From Aminobacterium sp. MB27-C1 (GTDB lineage Bacteria > Synergistota > Synergistia > Synergistales > Aminobacteriaceae), in assembly GCF_030908405.1 (NCBI RefSeq), contig NZ_CP133089.1, positions 1,798,001 through 1,862,000 on the forward strand: a stretch of DNA of 64,000 nucleotides. Reading direction: 5' to 3'. Below, one piece after another: positions 4,986 to 47,907 of this stretch. The notes below the pieces were generated by a model, which was not told the DNA's origin, made no database searches, and saw nothing but the letters and a program-made list of their open reading frames with translations. The position numbers were made by a program, and so were the translations under genes. The stretch's first letter is position 1; each line of letters begins with the position of its first letter.

Positions 4986-7900
4986 TTACTTTTTCCTGGC
5001 AATAGCCGCCGAAGCAACAGCAGCTGCTGTTTCAAGGGAATGGAGACACACTATAGATCCGTCGAGCGCTGCTTTACGAATTTTTGCACCATCCGTCAAA
5101 GGCTCTATGAATAAGCCAGGAATATTGACAATCAACTGCCACCGACCGTTCCGCACTCCTTCAAAAAGGGAATCATCTTTTTTAATGGGGTTCACTGGCA
5201 AGCCCCATCGTTTCAAAAGTGTAGCTGTTCCAGGAGTAGCATCTATATCCCATCCTAACGCTGATAACATGGAAGCTACAGGATAGACTCTGTCTTTAAC
5301 ATCATCACGAACGGAGAAAAGGACTCGACCCTTTTCTGGTATGGAAAGATCAGCACCTTGTAATGCATCGAAAAGAGCATCTGAAACCGTATCGGCTACG
5401 CCTAAAGATTCTCCTGTGGATTGCATCTGTGGGCCAAGTCGTGAATCTATTCCCGGAAGTTTTTCGGTGGAAAAGACTGGGGCTTTAACACCAAAAGGCC
5501 CTGTATAAAGATATAGGCCTGTCCCCCATGAAGAGTTTACAAGTCGTTCTCCCAAAGCAACTCCCACGGATAAGTCAACCAAAGGAATACCTGTTAATTT
5601 GCTGCCAATAGGTACAGTTCTGCTGGCACGCGGATTTGCTTCAATAACGTAAAGAGTTCCTGAGGAAAGCACAAATTGGATATTGAGCAAGCCATGTACG
5701 TCAAGGGCTTCTGAAAGTTTTCTGGTTATATCAACTATTTCTTGTCGCTGTCGCTGATTCAAAGAGATATCGGGAAAGATGCTGATTGAATCTCCCGAGT
5801 GTATTCCGGCAGGATCAAGGTGTTCAAAGATACCAGGAATCAAAATGTCTTTCCCGTCGCAAACGGCATCAACCTCAAATTCTTTGCCCGGAAGGAATCT
5901 ATCGATCATGACAGACTGATCGGGTTCCGCTGAAAAGGCCATCTCCAAAATTTTTACACAATCTTCAAATCGTGTTGCTACATGCATGGCAACGCCACCT
6001 ATAACAAAGCTTGGCCGCACCATAAGAGGGAAACCAAGTTTTTCTATTAAAGCAATTCCTTCTTCCAAGGATGTAACAGCATCGCCTTCAGGATAGTGAA
6101 TTTTAAGCTGGCGAAGGAGTTTGGCAAAGGCTCCCCTATCTTCGGCCATATTAATTGAATTGAAAGACGTACCAATAATAGGAGCTCCCTGAGAAGCTAA
6201 AATTTGTCCTAAACGCAGAGACGTCTGACCACCATAAGAAGCCAGAATTCCTTCCGCTCCCTCTTGGGATAAGATATGATCCACATCTTCTTCGGTAAGG
6301 GGTTCAAGATAGAGAGCATCGGAGATATCGTAATCGGTACTTACTGTTTCAGGATTATTGTTGATCATAACGGCTCGAATTCCTCGACGGCGAAGTGCTT
6401 CTACAGCTTTCACGCAACAATAGTCAAACTCCACTCCCTGAGCTATACGGATAGCACCTGAACCAAGAACGGCAATTGTTCGTTCTGACGCCTCTTTGTG
6501 CTGAACCTCTGCCTGATCGTAATATCCAAAGTAGTATCCAGATTCTGCCGGCTCATCTGTGGCACAACCATCTATTTCCCTATAAATCATATTTATTTTC
6601 TGACGGTTTTCTTCTTCTCTTATTTCTTTTATCGCGTGCTTCGTTAAAGTGGCAATAACGCGGTCAGAAAAACCTAGCTTTTTGGCTTCTGCCAAAATGG
6701 AAAGACCTTCGTCTCTCAACTTTTTCTCCATTGCTACAATATGACTCATAATTTCTATAAAATAAGGAACAAAAGCGCTTCGCTGTGCAATCTCAGAAAC
6801 AGAAAAACCTTTTCGCAATAAGTCGAACATGGCAGGGATTCTCTGAGATGTTGGAGTTGTAACGTGGTCCCAGAGATCTTCATTCGCCAATTCTTTCAGA
6901 TCATCACCAAAAAGCTGGTCTCGACCATCAATAGAACGGAAGGCCTTGAGAAGAGCCTGAGGAAGGGTTTTCCCTACAGCGACTACCTCTCCTGTAGCTT
7001 TCATTTTCGTTCCAAGTTCCATATTGGCTGTTGGGAAGGCATCAAATGGCCAACGAGGTAACTTGAGAACTATATAGTCAAGGTCAGGTTCAACCATGGC
7101 ATTTCCATTGCCCGTCATTGGGTTGGGAATTTCTGGCAAGGTCTTCCCTAATGCTATTTTCGCCGCAATACGAGCAATGGGGTATCCTGTAGCCTTACTT
7201 GCCAGAGCACTGGAACGGCTGGCACGAGGATTGACTTCTATTACGGCATATTCTTCACCATCGGGGGAGAGAGCAAACTGAACGTTACAAGCCCCTTCAA
7301 CTTCAAGGCTTTCCACTATATCAAGAGCAGCTTTTTTTAATCTTAGCCACTGATCGTCCGTCAATGTTAAAACGGGAGAAACAACAACTGAATCACCGGT
7401 ATGAACTCCCATGGGGTCAATATTTTCCATACCGCAAACACAAATTTTATTACCAGCTTCATCTCTGATAACTTCCGCTTCTATTTCATGCCATCCCTCT
7501 AAATATCTTTCGAGGAGTACCCTATGAACAGGGGATGCACGTAATCCTTCTTCAAGGCGCTCACTTAGTTCCTTCATGGTGTAAGCAACACCACCGCCCG
7601 TTCCACCCAATGTATAATCTGGACGAATAATCAAAGGGAATGACGTCTCTTCGGCAAAAACTACTCCCTCATCAATAGAAGAAACGTAAACGCTCTCGAT
7701 GATGGGCTGCTCTGTTTTTATCATGAGCTCTCTAAAAGCCTGTCGCCCTTCTGCCTCACGTATTGACGTAACGGAGGTTCCCAAAACTTTGGTACCATAT
7801 TTTTGCCAAATTCCACGTTCTTCACATTCTACACATAGATTCAAACCAGTTTGCCCTCCCAGAGTTGCTATAACTCCATCGGGAGAATGAACCTGAAGAA

Positions 7901-8114
7901 TCTGTTCTACTGTTTCCACTGTAAGAGGTTTGATGTACACATAATCTGCAAGTTCAACATCTGTCTGTATTGTTGCAGGGTTACTATTGAGCAATATAAC
8001 TTCGCATCCCTCTTCTTTTAATGCTCTACATGCCTGGCTTCCAGAATAATCAAACTCTGCTGCTTGTCCAATACGAATGGGGCCCGAACCTAAAATAAGA
8101 ACCTTCTTATACAT
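4986..8114 (-). CDS. carB: Carbamoyl-phosphate synthase large subunit
   Basis: 1042 residues, close to the usual length of about 1070. The internal duplication is plain: LGSGPIRIGQAAEFDYSG opens the first half and LGSGAIRIAQGVEFDYCC the second. Each half carries an ATP-grasp synthetase unit (N half makes carboxyphosphate, C half phosphorylates carbamate), with the oligomerisation region between and an MGS-like allosteric domain at the C terminus (about 930-1042), the site where UMP or ornithine act in known enzymes. It needs the glutaminase subunit CarA, not in this window. The ATG at 8114 has GAGG 8 bases upstream. The gene sits behind a leader with a small ORF and terminator, so pyrimidine-controlled attenuation is likely. 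Confidence 0.97.
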   Translation of the reverse strand: MYKKVLILGSGPIRIGQAAEFDYSGSQACRALKEEGCEVILLNSNPATIQTDVELADYVYIKPLTVETVEQILQVHSPDGVIATLGGQTGLNLCVECEERGIWQKYGTKVLGTSVTSIREAEGRQAFRELMIKTEQPIIESVYVSSIDEGVVFAEETSFPLIIRPDYTLGGTGGGVAYTMKELSERLEEGLRASPVHRVLLERYLEGWHEIEAEVIRDEAGNKICVCGMENIDPMGVHTGDSVVVSPVLTLTDDQWLRLKKAALDIVESLEVEGACNVQFALSPDGEEYAVIEVNPRASRSSALASKATGYPIARIAAKIALGKTLPEIPNPMTGNGNAMVEPDLDYIVLKLPRWPFDAFPTANMELGTKMKATGEVVAVGKTLPQALLKAFRSIDGRDQLFGDDLKELANEDLWDHVTTPTSQRIPAMFDLLRKGFSVSEIAQRSAFVPYFIEIMSHIVAMEKKLRDEGLSILAEAKKLGFSDRVIATLTKHAIKEIREEENRQKINMIYREIDGCATDEPAESGYYFGYYDQAEVQHKEASERTIAVLGSGAIRIAQGVEFDYCCVKAVEALRRRGIRAVMINNNPETVSTDYDISDALYLEPLTEEDVDHILSQEGAEGILASYGGQTSLRLGQILASQGAPIIGTSFNSINMAEDRGAFAKLLRQLKIHYPEGDAVTSLEEGIALIEKLGFPLMVRPSFVIGGVAMHVATRFEDCVKILEMAFSAEPDQSVMIDRFLPGKEFEVDAVCDGKDILIPGIFEHLDPAGIHSGDSISIFPDISLNQRQRQEIVDITRKLSEALDVHGLLNIQFVLSSGTLYVIEANPRASRTVPIGSKLTGIPLVDLSVGVALGERLVNSSWGTGLYLYTGPFGVKAPVFSTEKLPGIDSRLGPQMQSTGESLGVADTVSDALFDALQGADLSIPEKGRVLFSVRDDVKDRVYPVASMLSALGWDIDATPGTATLLKRWGLPVNPIKKDDSLFEGVRNGRWQLIVNIPGLFIEPLTDGAKIRKAALDGSIVCLHSLETAAAVASAAIARKK

Positions 8115-8141
8115 AATAAAAGCCTCACTTTCAATGAATAT

Positions 8142-8178
8142 AAAAAAAAGGCCTCAAAGCCTAACGCTTTGAAGCCTT
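8142..8178 (-). terminator. Intrinsic terminator in the carB leader (attenuator)
   Basis: Read on the minus strand: a 13-bp stem (8178-8166 with 8160-8148, one G-U pair), a 5-base loop and a run of eight T at 8149-8142. It ends 28 bases before the carB ATG. No other minus-strand gene lies upstream up to 8441, so it must act on the carB leader itself. The stop codon of the leader ORF lies in its loop. Confidence 0.85.
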
Positions 8179-8268
8179 ATTTCCAAAAAAGAAAACACCA
8201 ATTCCTTCTCCCATTATATTTTCTTTATTTGTCGAAAGAAGAACATCAGGTTTCTTGTATACAAACAT
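8161..8268 (-). CDS. 35-aa leader ORF upstream of carB
   Basis: ATG at 8268 with GAGG 8 bases upstream (8280-8277); TAG at 8163-8161. It starts MFVYKKPDVLL and ends FFFGNKASKR. The codons just before the terminator stem are U-rich (minus strand of 8181-8199: GUUUUCUUUUUU), and the ORF runs through the whole 5' arm of the terminator. A ribosome finishing it would cover that arm and block hairpin formation. This is the geometry known for the E. coli pyrBI leader, where UTP-dependent polymerase pausing couples translation to attenuation. The peptide itself may have no function. Alternative: an ordinary small protein gene. Confidence 0.6.
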   Translation of the reverse strand: MFVYKKPDVLLSTNKENIMGEGIGVFFFGNKASKR

Positions 8269-8322
8269 TTTATCATCCTCGGAATATAAAGTAAAGGTCA
8301 ATAGAATCTGATCCGAAGAGGT

Positions 8323-8351
8323 TTTATACCACGTAACGTTATTTTCGTCAA
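8323..8351 (-). promoter_or_regulatory. Sigma-70 type promoter of the carB leader
   Basis: Minus strand -35 TTGACG (8351-8346), 17-base spacer, -10 TATAAA (8328-8323). The predicted start near 8316 gives a leader of about 200 bases containing the small ORF and attenuator. Confidence 0.65.
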
Positions 8352-9255: not shown

Positions 9256-10479
9256 GTGAGTAAGGTTTGGGAAGGGAATTTTAGCTACAATGCTAAGAAT
9301 GTCAGGCCTTCACCAATAAGAGAAATGCTGGCTGTTATTAAACAACCGGGAATGATTTCTTTTGCCGGTGGCATGCCTGCACCAGAAGTATTTCCTGTGG
9401 ACGAATTTTACGAAGGGGTACATATTCTTAAAGAGGATGGGAAAAATATTCTTCAGTATGGAACAACAGAAGGATACCCTCCCTTAAAAGAATTCCTTGC
9501 CGAGTGGACAGCCCCTCGTATGGGGAAAGTTGCAACCCTAGAAGAAATGTTGATCACTACAGGATCACAGCAAGCTTTAGACCTTTTCTCGTGGGCAATG
9601 ATCGATAGAGGTGATTATGTCATCACCGAAGATCCCACGTATCTTGCAGCTCTCACCACTTTTTATAACCATGGAGCTAAGTTTTTAGGAGTCCCTATGG
9701 ACAAAGATGGTATGCAGGTTGATCTTCTTCCTGAAATCATCGAAAAAGCTCGTAAAGAGGGTAAAAACGTAAAGTTTATCTATACCATCGTCAACTTCCA
9801 AAACCCAGGCGGCGCTACAATGACCTTAGAACGGCGCAAAAAACTTGTTGAGATTTCACACAAATATTCTATTCCAATTTTTGAAGACGACCCTTATGGC
9901 TATGTTCGCTATGATGGAGAACATTTGCCGTCTATCTTCTCTCTTGACGATAATGATGGCGTTATTTACGCTGGTTCATTTTCGAAGATTCTTTCTCCTG
10001 GAAGCCGCATAGGATGGGTTACCGGATCTAAAGAAATCATCAGAAAGATGACTGTGTTCAAACAGGCTACTGACTTGTGCACCAGTACCATCACACAAGC
10101 TCTTGTCGCTGAATATTGCCGTAACGGATATCTTGATAAACATCTTCCTGTCATAATTGATAACTACCGCGTAAAACGTGACGCTATGCAAGAAAGCTTT
10201 AAACGCCATCTGGAACCACTTGGCGTAACATGGGTTAAACCTGAAGGCGGGTTCTTCTACTGGCTGCACTTCCCTGAGGTCAATACCAAGGATCTTTTCA
10301 ATAAAGCTATTGAAAAGAAAGTTGCATTTGTCATTGGTGAACCCTTCTGTACTAATCCTGGTAGCGGAGCTCACAATGCTCGACTTTGCTACACTTTCCC
10401 GACGCCGGAAGTCACAGAGGAAGGAGTCAAACGTTTGGCAGAAGCCATACAAGAACTTGCACAAACCGTTACCGCATAG
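9256..10479 (+). CDS. PLP-dependent aminotransferase, 2-aminoadipate/LysN-like (paralog 1)
   Basis: 407 residues of the fold-type I family that includes 2-aminoadipate and multi-substrate amino acid transaminases related to the MocR catalytic domain. Visible are SFAGGMPAPEVFP near the N terminus, QYGTTEGYPPLKEFL, the NFQNPGG loop, the EDDPYGY aspartate loop, and the PLP lysine in YAGSFSKILSPGSRIGW. The GTG start has GGGGAGG 8 bases upstream. An ATG at 9252 lies closer to the same site but runs into a stop after MRE. A collinear paralog follows, pointing to tandem duplication. The likely role is amino acid catabolism; substrate unknown. Confidence 0.9.
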   Translation: MSKVWEGNFSYNAKNVRPSPIREMLAVIKQPGMISFAGGMPAPEVFPVDEFYEGVHILKEDGKNILQYGTTEGYPPLKEFLAEWTAPRMGKVATLEEMLITTGSQQALDLFSWAMIDRGDYVITEDPTYLAALTTFYNHGAKFLGVPMDKDGMQVDLLPEIIEKARKEGKNVKFIYTIVNFQNPGGATMTLERRKKLVEISHKYSIPIFEDDPYGYVRYDGEHLPSIFSLDDNDGVIYAGSFSKILSPGSRIGWVTGSKEIIRKMTVFKQATDLCTSTITQALVAEYCRNGYLDKHLPVIIDNYRVKRDAMQESFKRHLEPLGVTWVKPEGGFFYWLHFPEVNTKDLFNKAIEKKVAFVIGEPFCTNPGSGAHNARLCYTFPTPEVTEEGVKRLAEAIQELAQTVTA

Positions 10480-10487
10480 ATATTCCA

Positions 10488-10513
10488 GGGGCCTTTTCAA
10501 AAGGCCCCTTATT
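10488..10513 (+). terminator. Hairpin between the two aminotransferase genes
   Basis: GGGGCCTTTT (10488-10497) pairs with AAAAGGCCCC (10499-10508). The T tail is weak (TTATTCTAT), so it probably terminates partially or stabilises the upstream mRNA, allowing read-through into the second gene. Confidence 0.55.
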
Positions 10514-10538
10514 CTATAAGGGAGGGAAATCAGAACTA

Positions 10539-11744
10539 GTGAATACCTATTGGGATGCTTTGTATAGTCATTCAGCATTACAAATCAAACCTTCTCCCAT
10601 TAGAGATATTTTCCACGTTATACGCAAACCAGGCATGATTTCTTTTGCAGGAGGTATGCCTGATCCTGACATCTTTCCTATTGAGCAATTCTACGAAGCA
10701 ACCTCAATCATCAAAAGAGAAGGACGAGATATTCTTCAATATGGCATTACGGAGGGGTACCCTCCACTTAAAGAATTTCTAATAGAATGGCTGAAACCAC
10801 GACTTGGGCACAAGGTAGAGATGGATGAGATGCTTATAACCTCAGGGTCTATTCAGGCAGCAGATCTTCTTACCCTCTCTACAATAGACAAGGACGATTA
10901 TGTTATTACTGAGGAACCTACATTCTTGGGCACAACCATTGATATGTATAACCACGGAGCGCGTTTTATCTGCGTTCCATGTGACTCCGAAGGCATGCAA
11001 GTAGAGCAACTTCCAGAGCTTATAGAAAAAGCTCGTTCTGAAGGCAAAAAAATAAAGTATATCTACACTATCCCTAACTTCAACAATCCCTCTGGCGCCA
11101 CTATGAGCCTTCTGAGGAGAAAAAAACTTATTTCTATAGCCAATCAGTACGGCATTGCTATTTTGGAAGATGACCCTTATGGATATATTCGATTTGAAGG
11201 AGAGCATTTACCTTCACTCTTCTCTCTTGATACATCAGGACTCGTTATTTATGCAGGATCTTTTTCCAAAATTTTAGCGCCTGGAACCAGAGTAGCCTGG
11301 TGTTGTGGAAATAAAGATATTATAAGAAAAATGGCTGTTTTCAAGCAGGGAGTCGATACGTGTACAAGTGTTGTAGCCCAGGCCTTAGTTTACGAATATT
11401 GTCGCCTAGGTCACCTTGATAACTTTCTACCACGCATAGTCGAGCATTACCGTCAAAAACGAAATCATATGAAAGATGCTCTTCAATTTCATATTCCCCA
11501 AAAAACTGCTTCTTACAACATTCCATCAGGTGGTTTTTTCTTTTGGGTAAAAACTCCTGACATTTTGGCAGAGGATCTTTTTGAAAAAGCTCTCGAAAAA
11601 AATGTAGCCTTTGTTAAAGGAGCGCCCTTTTTCCCCAATGGAGGTGGAGAACATCATTTTAGGCTTTGTTATACTTTTGCATCGCCTGAAATGATTGATG
11701 AAGGAATTCGACGACTAGCAGAATCGATGGAAGAGCTTCTTTAA
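10539..11744 (+). CDS. PLP-dependent aminotransferase, 2-aminoadipate/LysN-like (paralog 2)
   Basis: 401 residues, collinear with the preceding gene: SFAGGMPDPDIFP, QYGITEGYPPLKEFL, NFNNPSG, EDDPYGYIRFEGEHLPS, and the PLP lysine in YAGSFSKILAPGTRVAW. The start is chosen as GTG at 10539, because homology to paralog 1 begins there; the GGAGG at 10521-10525 is 13 bases away, longer than ideal. The open frame reaches back to 10386, but that extension only reads through the end of paralog 1 and the hairpin. Substitutions near the active site (for example WCCGNKD against WVTGSKE) suggest a shifted substrate range. A strong terminator follows. Confidence 0.9.
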   Translation: MNTYWDALYSHSALQIKPSPIRDIFHVIRKPGMISFAGGMPDPDIFPIEQFYEATSIIKREGRDILQYGITEGYPPLKEFLIEWLKPRLGHKVEMDEMLITSGSIQAADLLTLSTIDKDDYVITEEPTFLGTTIDMYNHGARFICVPCDSEGMQVEQLPELIEKARSEGKKIKYIYTIPNFNNPSGATMSLLRRKKLISIANQYGIAILEDDPYGYIRFEGEHLPSLFSLDTSGLVIYAGSFSKILAPGTRVAWCCGNKDIIRKMAVFKQGVDTCTSVVAQALVYEYCRLGHLDNFLPRIVEHYRQKRNHMKDALQFHIPQKTASYNIPSGGFFFWVKTPDILAEDLFEKALEKNVAFVKGAPFFPNGGGEHHFRLCYTFASPEMIDEGIRRLAESMEELL

Positions 11745-47698: not shown

Positions 47699-47708
47699 AT
47701 AATAAAGA

Positions 47709-47849
47709 TCGTTTTTTGATGTTGGGAATCTGGTGAAAGACCAGAACGGCCCCGCCACTGTAACAGGGACAATCTCGCTATAGCCACTGGGAAGACTGGG
47801 AAGGCGCGAGAAAGGATGAACTGGAGTCAGGAGACCGATTAAAAAACGA
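47709..47849 (+). ncRNA. Cobalamin riboswitch
   Basis: The conserved cobalamin-box elements appear in order: GGGAATCTGGTG, GCCCCGCCACTGTAACAGGG, AGCCACTGGGAAGACTGGG and GGAGTCAGGAGACC. The closing P1 stem pairs TCGTTTTTT (47709-47717) with AAAAAACGA (47841-47849). It binds adenosylcobalamin and controls the downstream btuB through a terminator platform. Confidence 0.95.
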
Positions 47850-47907
47850 TACATATCATTATCATGCGAGGGCGTGATGTGGTAACTGTCTTTGTCGCCC
47901 TATTTGT

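Follow-up and report, generated by a model that had tools for sequence, protein, structure and literature searches.

A putative pyrBI-type attenuator in the leader of carB in Aminobacterium sp. MB27-C1

Control of pyrimidine genes through a ribosome coupled to RNA polymerase along a leader peptide has been known mostly from E. coli and related bacteria. The leader of carB, the gene for the large subunit of carbamoyl-phosphate synthase, in Aminobacterium sp. MB27-C1 raises the question of whether a control of this kind also operates in the phylum Synergistota. The locus lies on the minus strand of a stretch of 64,000 nucleotides (contig NZ_CP133089.1, positions 1,798,001 to 1,862,000; "the window", in whose coordinates positions are given) from a genome of 2.43 Mb in a single contig. 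The host is an amino-acid-fermenting anaerobe.

Anatomy of the carB leader and its chance levels

The features of the leader, in order of transcription, are the following:

8323..8351, minus: promoter, TTGACG (8351-8346), 17-nt spacer, TATAAA (8328-8323)
8276..8319, minus: possible 5' hairpin, UCUUCGGA (8319-8312) with UCCGAGGA (8283-8276), prediction only
8295-8267, minus: second promoter-like site, TTTACT-17-TAAAAT, overlapping the start of the leader ORF
8277..8280, minus: Shine-Dalgarno sequence (SD) GAGG of the leader ORF, 8-nt spacing to the ATG
8161..8268, minus: leader ORF of 35 codons, ATG 8268, stop TAG 8163-8161, the stop being held in the terminator loop
8185..8196, minus: U-rich run, GTTTTCTTTTTT / GUUUUCUUUUUU, Phe-Phe-Phe codons, candidate UTP-sensitive pause site
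8178-8148, minus: intrinsic terminator, 13-bp stem (13 pairs), 5-nt loop, -20.5 kcal/mol
8149-8142, minus: T tract of the terminator (full terminator feature 8142..8178)
8123..8126, minus: SD GAGG of carB
4986..8114, minus: carB, carbamoyl-phosphate synthase large subunit, ATG 8114, without carA in the genome

The sequence-only reading had listed a promoter, an SD, a 35-codon ORF, a U run and a 13-bp terminator with the ORF stop in its loop, and each of these elements was recovered at its position. The promoter matches the consensus at 10 of 12 positions and carries TGG before the -10 element. The ORF reads MFVYKKPDVLLSTNKENIMGEGIGVFFFGNKASKR (35 codons); its SD is weak, weaker than those of the pyrR leaders described below, and the U-rich run ends 6 nt upstream of the terminator foot. 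Promoter, SD, ORF stop and terminator are mutually in register. The second promoter-like site would bypass the ORF and therefore counts against a pyrBI-type reading: if it were the sole one used, the carB transcript would carry no leader peptide.

Terminator and fold of the leader exceed chance, with three sites in the terminator scan versus 0.5 expected from shuffled sequences and a folding z-score of -3.75. Each alone, the ORF (p=0.07 for a 34-codon open frame in dinucleotide shuffles) and the U run (p=0.14 given composition for the T-rich 8-mer, 7/8 T) are weak. The frame stays open for a further 28 codons upstream of the ATG, giving a 64-aa reading. An origin of the ORF as a gene remnant was considered and rejected, because this longer reading matched nothing in Pfam and had no convincing relative in the 183 genomes searched. 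Comparison of the leader with known RNA families gave sub-threshold matches only.

carB and the pyr leaders of the order

No carbamoyl-phosphate synthase gene other than carB was found in the genome. The small-subunit family (PF00988, carA) is absent from this genome and present in 14/14 control genomes; the enzyme is probably ammonia-dependent or served by another glutaminase. Both congeners lack carB, and at the corresponding locus their genes for the M48 protease and the lytic transglycosylase directly adjoin each other. In the window, these two genes flank carB, and the sequence upstream of the transglycosylase gene is retained. The closest CarB proteins, with approximately 72% identity across the N-terminal 305 residues, belong to other families of the order, and their genes are mostly situated within carAB operons. 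As the congeners have no carB and the carAB leaders of the relatives differ, the carB leader is a single sequence without an alignable counterpart. The combination of ORF and terminator is mostly missing from the relatives' car operons, with the exception of one carAB leader (L005), in which a 9-codon ORF stops at the terminator foot. A likeness between ACAAGAAACCTGATGTTCTTC of the carB leader and L055 was judged to be due to chance.

Several other observations were made at car genes and in the window. The 5' ends upstream of carA or carB in the order (L003-L010, L055-L075, L195-L214) roughly share URAACC-n3-5-GGUnA near the start, followed by a U-rich stretch, and this short motif matches no known family. 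A gene for a YgeW-like third transcarbamylase (L078, G000:C1:2025534-2025968) adjoins a YgeY-like peptidase gene. The window also contains a cobalamin riboswitch (47700-47857, plus strand, 93.9 bits) and a tandem pair of similar aminotransferase genes (9256-11744, plus strand).

The same genome encodes PyrR, together with a full operon pyrR-pyrB-pyrC-pyrK/D-pyrF-pyrE. PyrR is encoded twice, at 344271 and 1003033; a second pyrR paralogue (L115, G000:C1:1003033-1003572) lies downstream of an rnc-like gene in each Aminobacterium genome and has no pyr-type leader. The leader of the genome's own pyrR operon carries an SD and a 32-codon ORF that runs through the terminator. For the pyrR leaders across the order, the start codon was picked by SD strength alone, and the frame was then tested for reaching the terminator. 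In leaders of the operator type, the terminator foot was reached by frame 0 in 43/44 cases (+1 in 9, +2 in 15), and in those of the PyrR-loop type by frame 0 in 7/7 (+1 in 1, +2 in 4). Counted per genus, the ORF with the best SD extends to or across the pyrR terminator in 22/23, compared with approximately 28% for the other frames (binomial p=9e-12). Judged from these counts, the joint arrangement is selected for at pyrR operons, both in this genome and across the order. The stop lies past the terminator in G000 and G001 of the genus and in f1 relatives, inside the terminator loop in several f4 genera, f2 and the congener G002, and exactly at the terminator foot in other f4 genera. The carB stop, 15 nt inside the foot, fits the range of these leaders (7-16 nt in f4 genera, 18 in f2, 21 in G002).

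Three main kinds of pyrR leader were distinguished in the order, along with a smaller group lacking terminator and leader ORF. The first kind comprises classical PyrR attenuators. The second combines the promoter palindrome TGCAACCGsTTGCA with a leader ORF whose stop falls within the terminator or past it. In the third (L107-L109, L125, L133, L137, L153, L154, L156, L159, L161), an evident PyrR loop adjoins or overlaps the SD belonging to an ORF of this sort, which likewise stops within or past the terminator. The palindrome resembles a LacI-family operator and overlaps the pyrR promoter in most genera (L085-L134 and others). The leaders lacking terminator and leader ORF are L095, L097-L099, L103 and L104; in these, GCCUCC just after the -10 element can pair with pyrR's own SD, GGAGGC.

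Proposed mechanism and its alternatives

The leader of E. coli pyrBI (pyrL) was measured identically, as a positive control. The distance from start to terminator foot is 88 nt in pyrL and 90 nt in the carB leader, the best T count is 7/8 in both, and the U run of pyrL gave p=0.08 in the test that gave 0.14 for carB. The leader ORFs of the genus are enriched in U runs (Fisher p ~0.001, post hoc), and T is richer near the terminator foot across genera (0.083 +/- 0.030). For the order as a whole a universal U run was not supported, and A is clustered as well, which counts against a pyrBI-type reading.

We favour, with a probability of about 0.55, the reading that carB is under a translation-coupled transcription attenuator of the pyrL/pyrBI type. 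RNA polymerase would start at the promoter at 8351-8323, and a ribosome would load on the 35-codon leader ORF. A ribosome following closely would reach the end of the ORF and cover the 5' arm of the terminator, since the ORF stop lies in the terminator loop, and carB would be transcribed; with the ribosome lagging or absent, the terminator would form and carB would be off. The signal read by this device is likely to be pyrimidine supply: low UTP would slow the polymerase in the U-rich run and allow the ribosome to catch up. That leader translation disables the carB terminator is likely by analogy with pyrBI (PMC4824070, PMC5021804), being well supported by the conservation at the pyrR leaders and the dimensions shared with pyrL; UTP as the signal acting through the U run is plausible. 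The proposal of a pyrBI-like attenuator was thus upheld for the overlap of ORF and terminator, through the pyrR leaders (22/23 genera) and the match to pyrL, and found weakly supported for UTP sensing. For the latter, the enrichment in the genus speaks in favour, the signal in the order is modest, and the run at carB itself is not significant. The operator-like palindrome of the pyrR promoters is absent from the carB promoter, which counts against the favoured reading.

The closest alternative accepts that a ribosome on the leader ORF disables the terminator and places the gate at access to the leader SD instead of UTP-dependent pausing, the 5' hairpin forming only in RNAs started at upstream pyrimidines or a regulator binding there. 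E. coli pyrC and pyrD are precedents, with start-site switching in which the start nucleotide decides whether a 5' hairpin covers the SD. In the carB leader, a predicted 8-bp hairpin would bury the SD in RNA starting close to the -10 element, and a start 2-5 bases later would leave it exposed; the predicted unpaired fraction of the SD is 0.07 when transcription begins at one of positions 1-4 past the -10 element and 0.71 from position 6 onward. In the pyrR leaders, pairing of the bases right after the -10 element with the SD region exceeds that of swapped partners (genus permutation P=0.011), and other genera place a PyrR-loop hairpin against the leader SD. This pairing signal is, however, heterogeneous and missing in many genera, so a universal 5' SD hairpin is not claimed; the 9-nt segment of carB pairs no better than swapped segments, and the carB leader lacks a PyrR loop. 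On balance, gating of the SD is a possible but rather unlikely explanation. A fixed brake on carB, consisting of an ordinary partial terminator and a chance ORF whose translation is irrelevant, would suit the p values of ORF (0.07) and U run (0.14), the weak SD, the frame open even before the ATG and the relatives' car operons mostly without ORF and terminator. It leaves aside the register of promoter, SD, ORF stop and terminator, as well as the joint arrangement selected for at pyrR operons here and throughout the order, and is considered unlikely. Amino-acid attenuation, or reinitiation from the leader peptide onto carB, could draw on the presence of a leader ORF with a single Arg codon before its stop and on the reinitiation proposed for many leader genes (PMC4833913). 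The ORF has no run of Arg codons (1 Arg codon in 35), no antiterminator was seen, and the leader stop is separated from the carB start by 46 nt and an intervening terminator, against a published peak of 10-16 bp (PMC4833913); either process is very improbable here.

Classical attenuation of the B. subtilis type, in which PyrR on its binding loop prevents an antiterminator, deserves consideration because PyrR is encoded in the genome and the Rfam PyrR model (RF00515) matches the carB leader over its full length, at a sub-threshold 29 bits versus a cut-off of 54. The matching part of the leader is, however, without the binding loop, no UCCNGNGAGG-like loop being present. Other leaders of the order exceed the threshold (L166 with 65 bits, L187 with 57 bits), and the model therefore works in this phylum. 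Control of carB in this manner is accordingly highly doubtful, and the sequence-only reading, which had recognised no PyrR-binding loop in the leader, was borne out in this respect. A perfect hairpin with CAGGGAGG in the pyrR leader of the genome itself was tried as a PyrR loop and rejected; it is not preserved in the congeners, and the element is therefore probably just the SD. A role of PyrR elsewhere in the order is a different matter. The genome that carries carB has PyrR and a complete pyr operon. In other genera, PyrR loops stand beside the SD of leader ORFs, which implies a hybrid of PyrR and leader-peptide control. In leaders of the third kind, PyrR may block leader translation. We tentatively consider a hybrid at the pyrimidine operons of the Synergistales in which PyrR on its loop, or a different 5' hairpin, would shut off the SD of the leader ORF, and of which the carB leader might be a derived form. 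Without a ribosome on the leader ORF, the overlapping terminator would act, and with one it would be disabled; PyrR would target translation of the leader peptide, not an antiterminator, and the gate of the carB leader would be UTP-dependent pausing or start-site choice. No PyrR/leader-peptide hybrid and no Synergistota pyr attenuator was found described in a literature search with most subscription papers outside its reach.

Comparison with known systems

The RF00515 attenuator of B. subtilis shares with the present case the control of pyrimidine genes and an encoded PyrR, and it is clear in some genera of the order; it differs in that a binding loop or an Rfam-level match is missing from both the carB and the pyrR leaders of this genome. 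The terminator of the E. coli pyrE (rph-pyrE) attenuator is disabled when translation stops at it or shortly upstream. Among the pyrR leaders of the order, several similarly stop exactly at the terminator foot; the translated frame in E. coli is a full upstream gene, whereas carB has a 35-codon leader. At P1 of E. coli carAB, UTP-dependent reiterative initiation has been described (PMC6245113). The likeness here is pyrimidine-responsive control of a car gene; P1, however, acts at initiation, with neither terminator nor leader peptide.

The system closest in layout is E. coli pyrBI. Its terminator lies within the 135-bp leader gene and is not repressed at normal UTP, coupling being required (PMC4824070), and ribosomes suppress terminators near a stop codon (PMC5021804). 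Common to both leaders are the promoter, the SD, a short ORF overlapping an intrinsic terminator, Phe-Phe-Phe codons from a U-rich run and a first pyrimidine structural gene just downstream, which is pyrB in E. coli and carB here. The stop codon lies 44 nt beyond the foot in pyrL and inside the terminator loop in the carB leader, and the U run is 20 nt from the foot in pyrL and 6 nt in the carB leader; these differences in spacing and stop position count against a pyrBI-type reading. The carB leader is further set apart by its phylum, by a genome with PyrR and by being known from its sequence alone.

The presence of pyrBI-like parts in the distant Synergistota, with the frame conserved in 22/23 genera, suggests repeated invention or great age, and the order shows transitional forms, with PyrR loops and leader ORFs within one leader. 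The finding bears on transcription-translation coupling outside the proteobacteria and on the tuning of carbamoyl phosphate supply in a genome with carB and without carA. By its architecture, the carB leader seems to resemble pyrBI control, as a close functional look-alike in a distant phylum.
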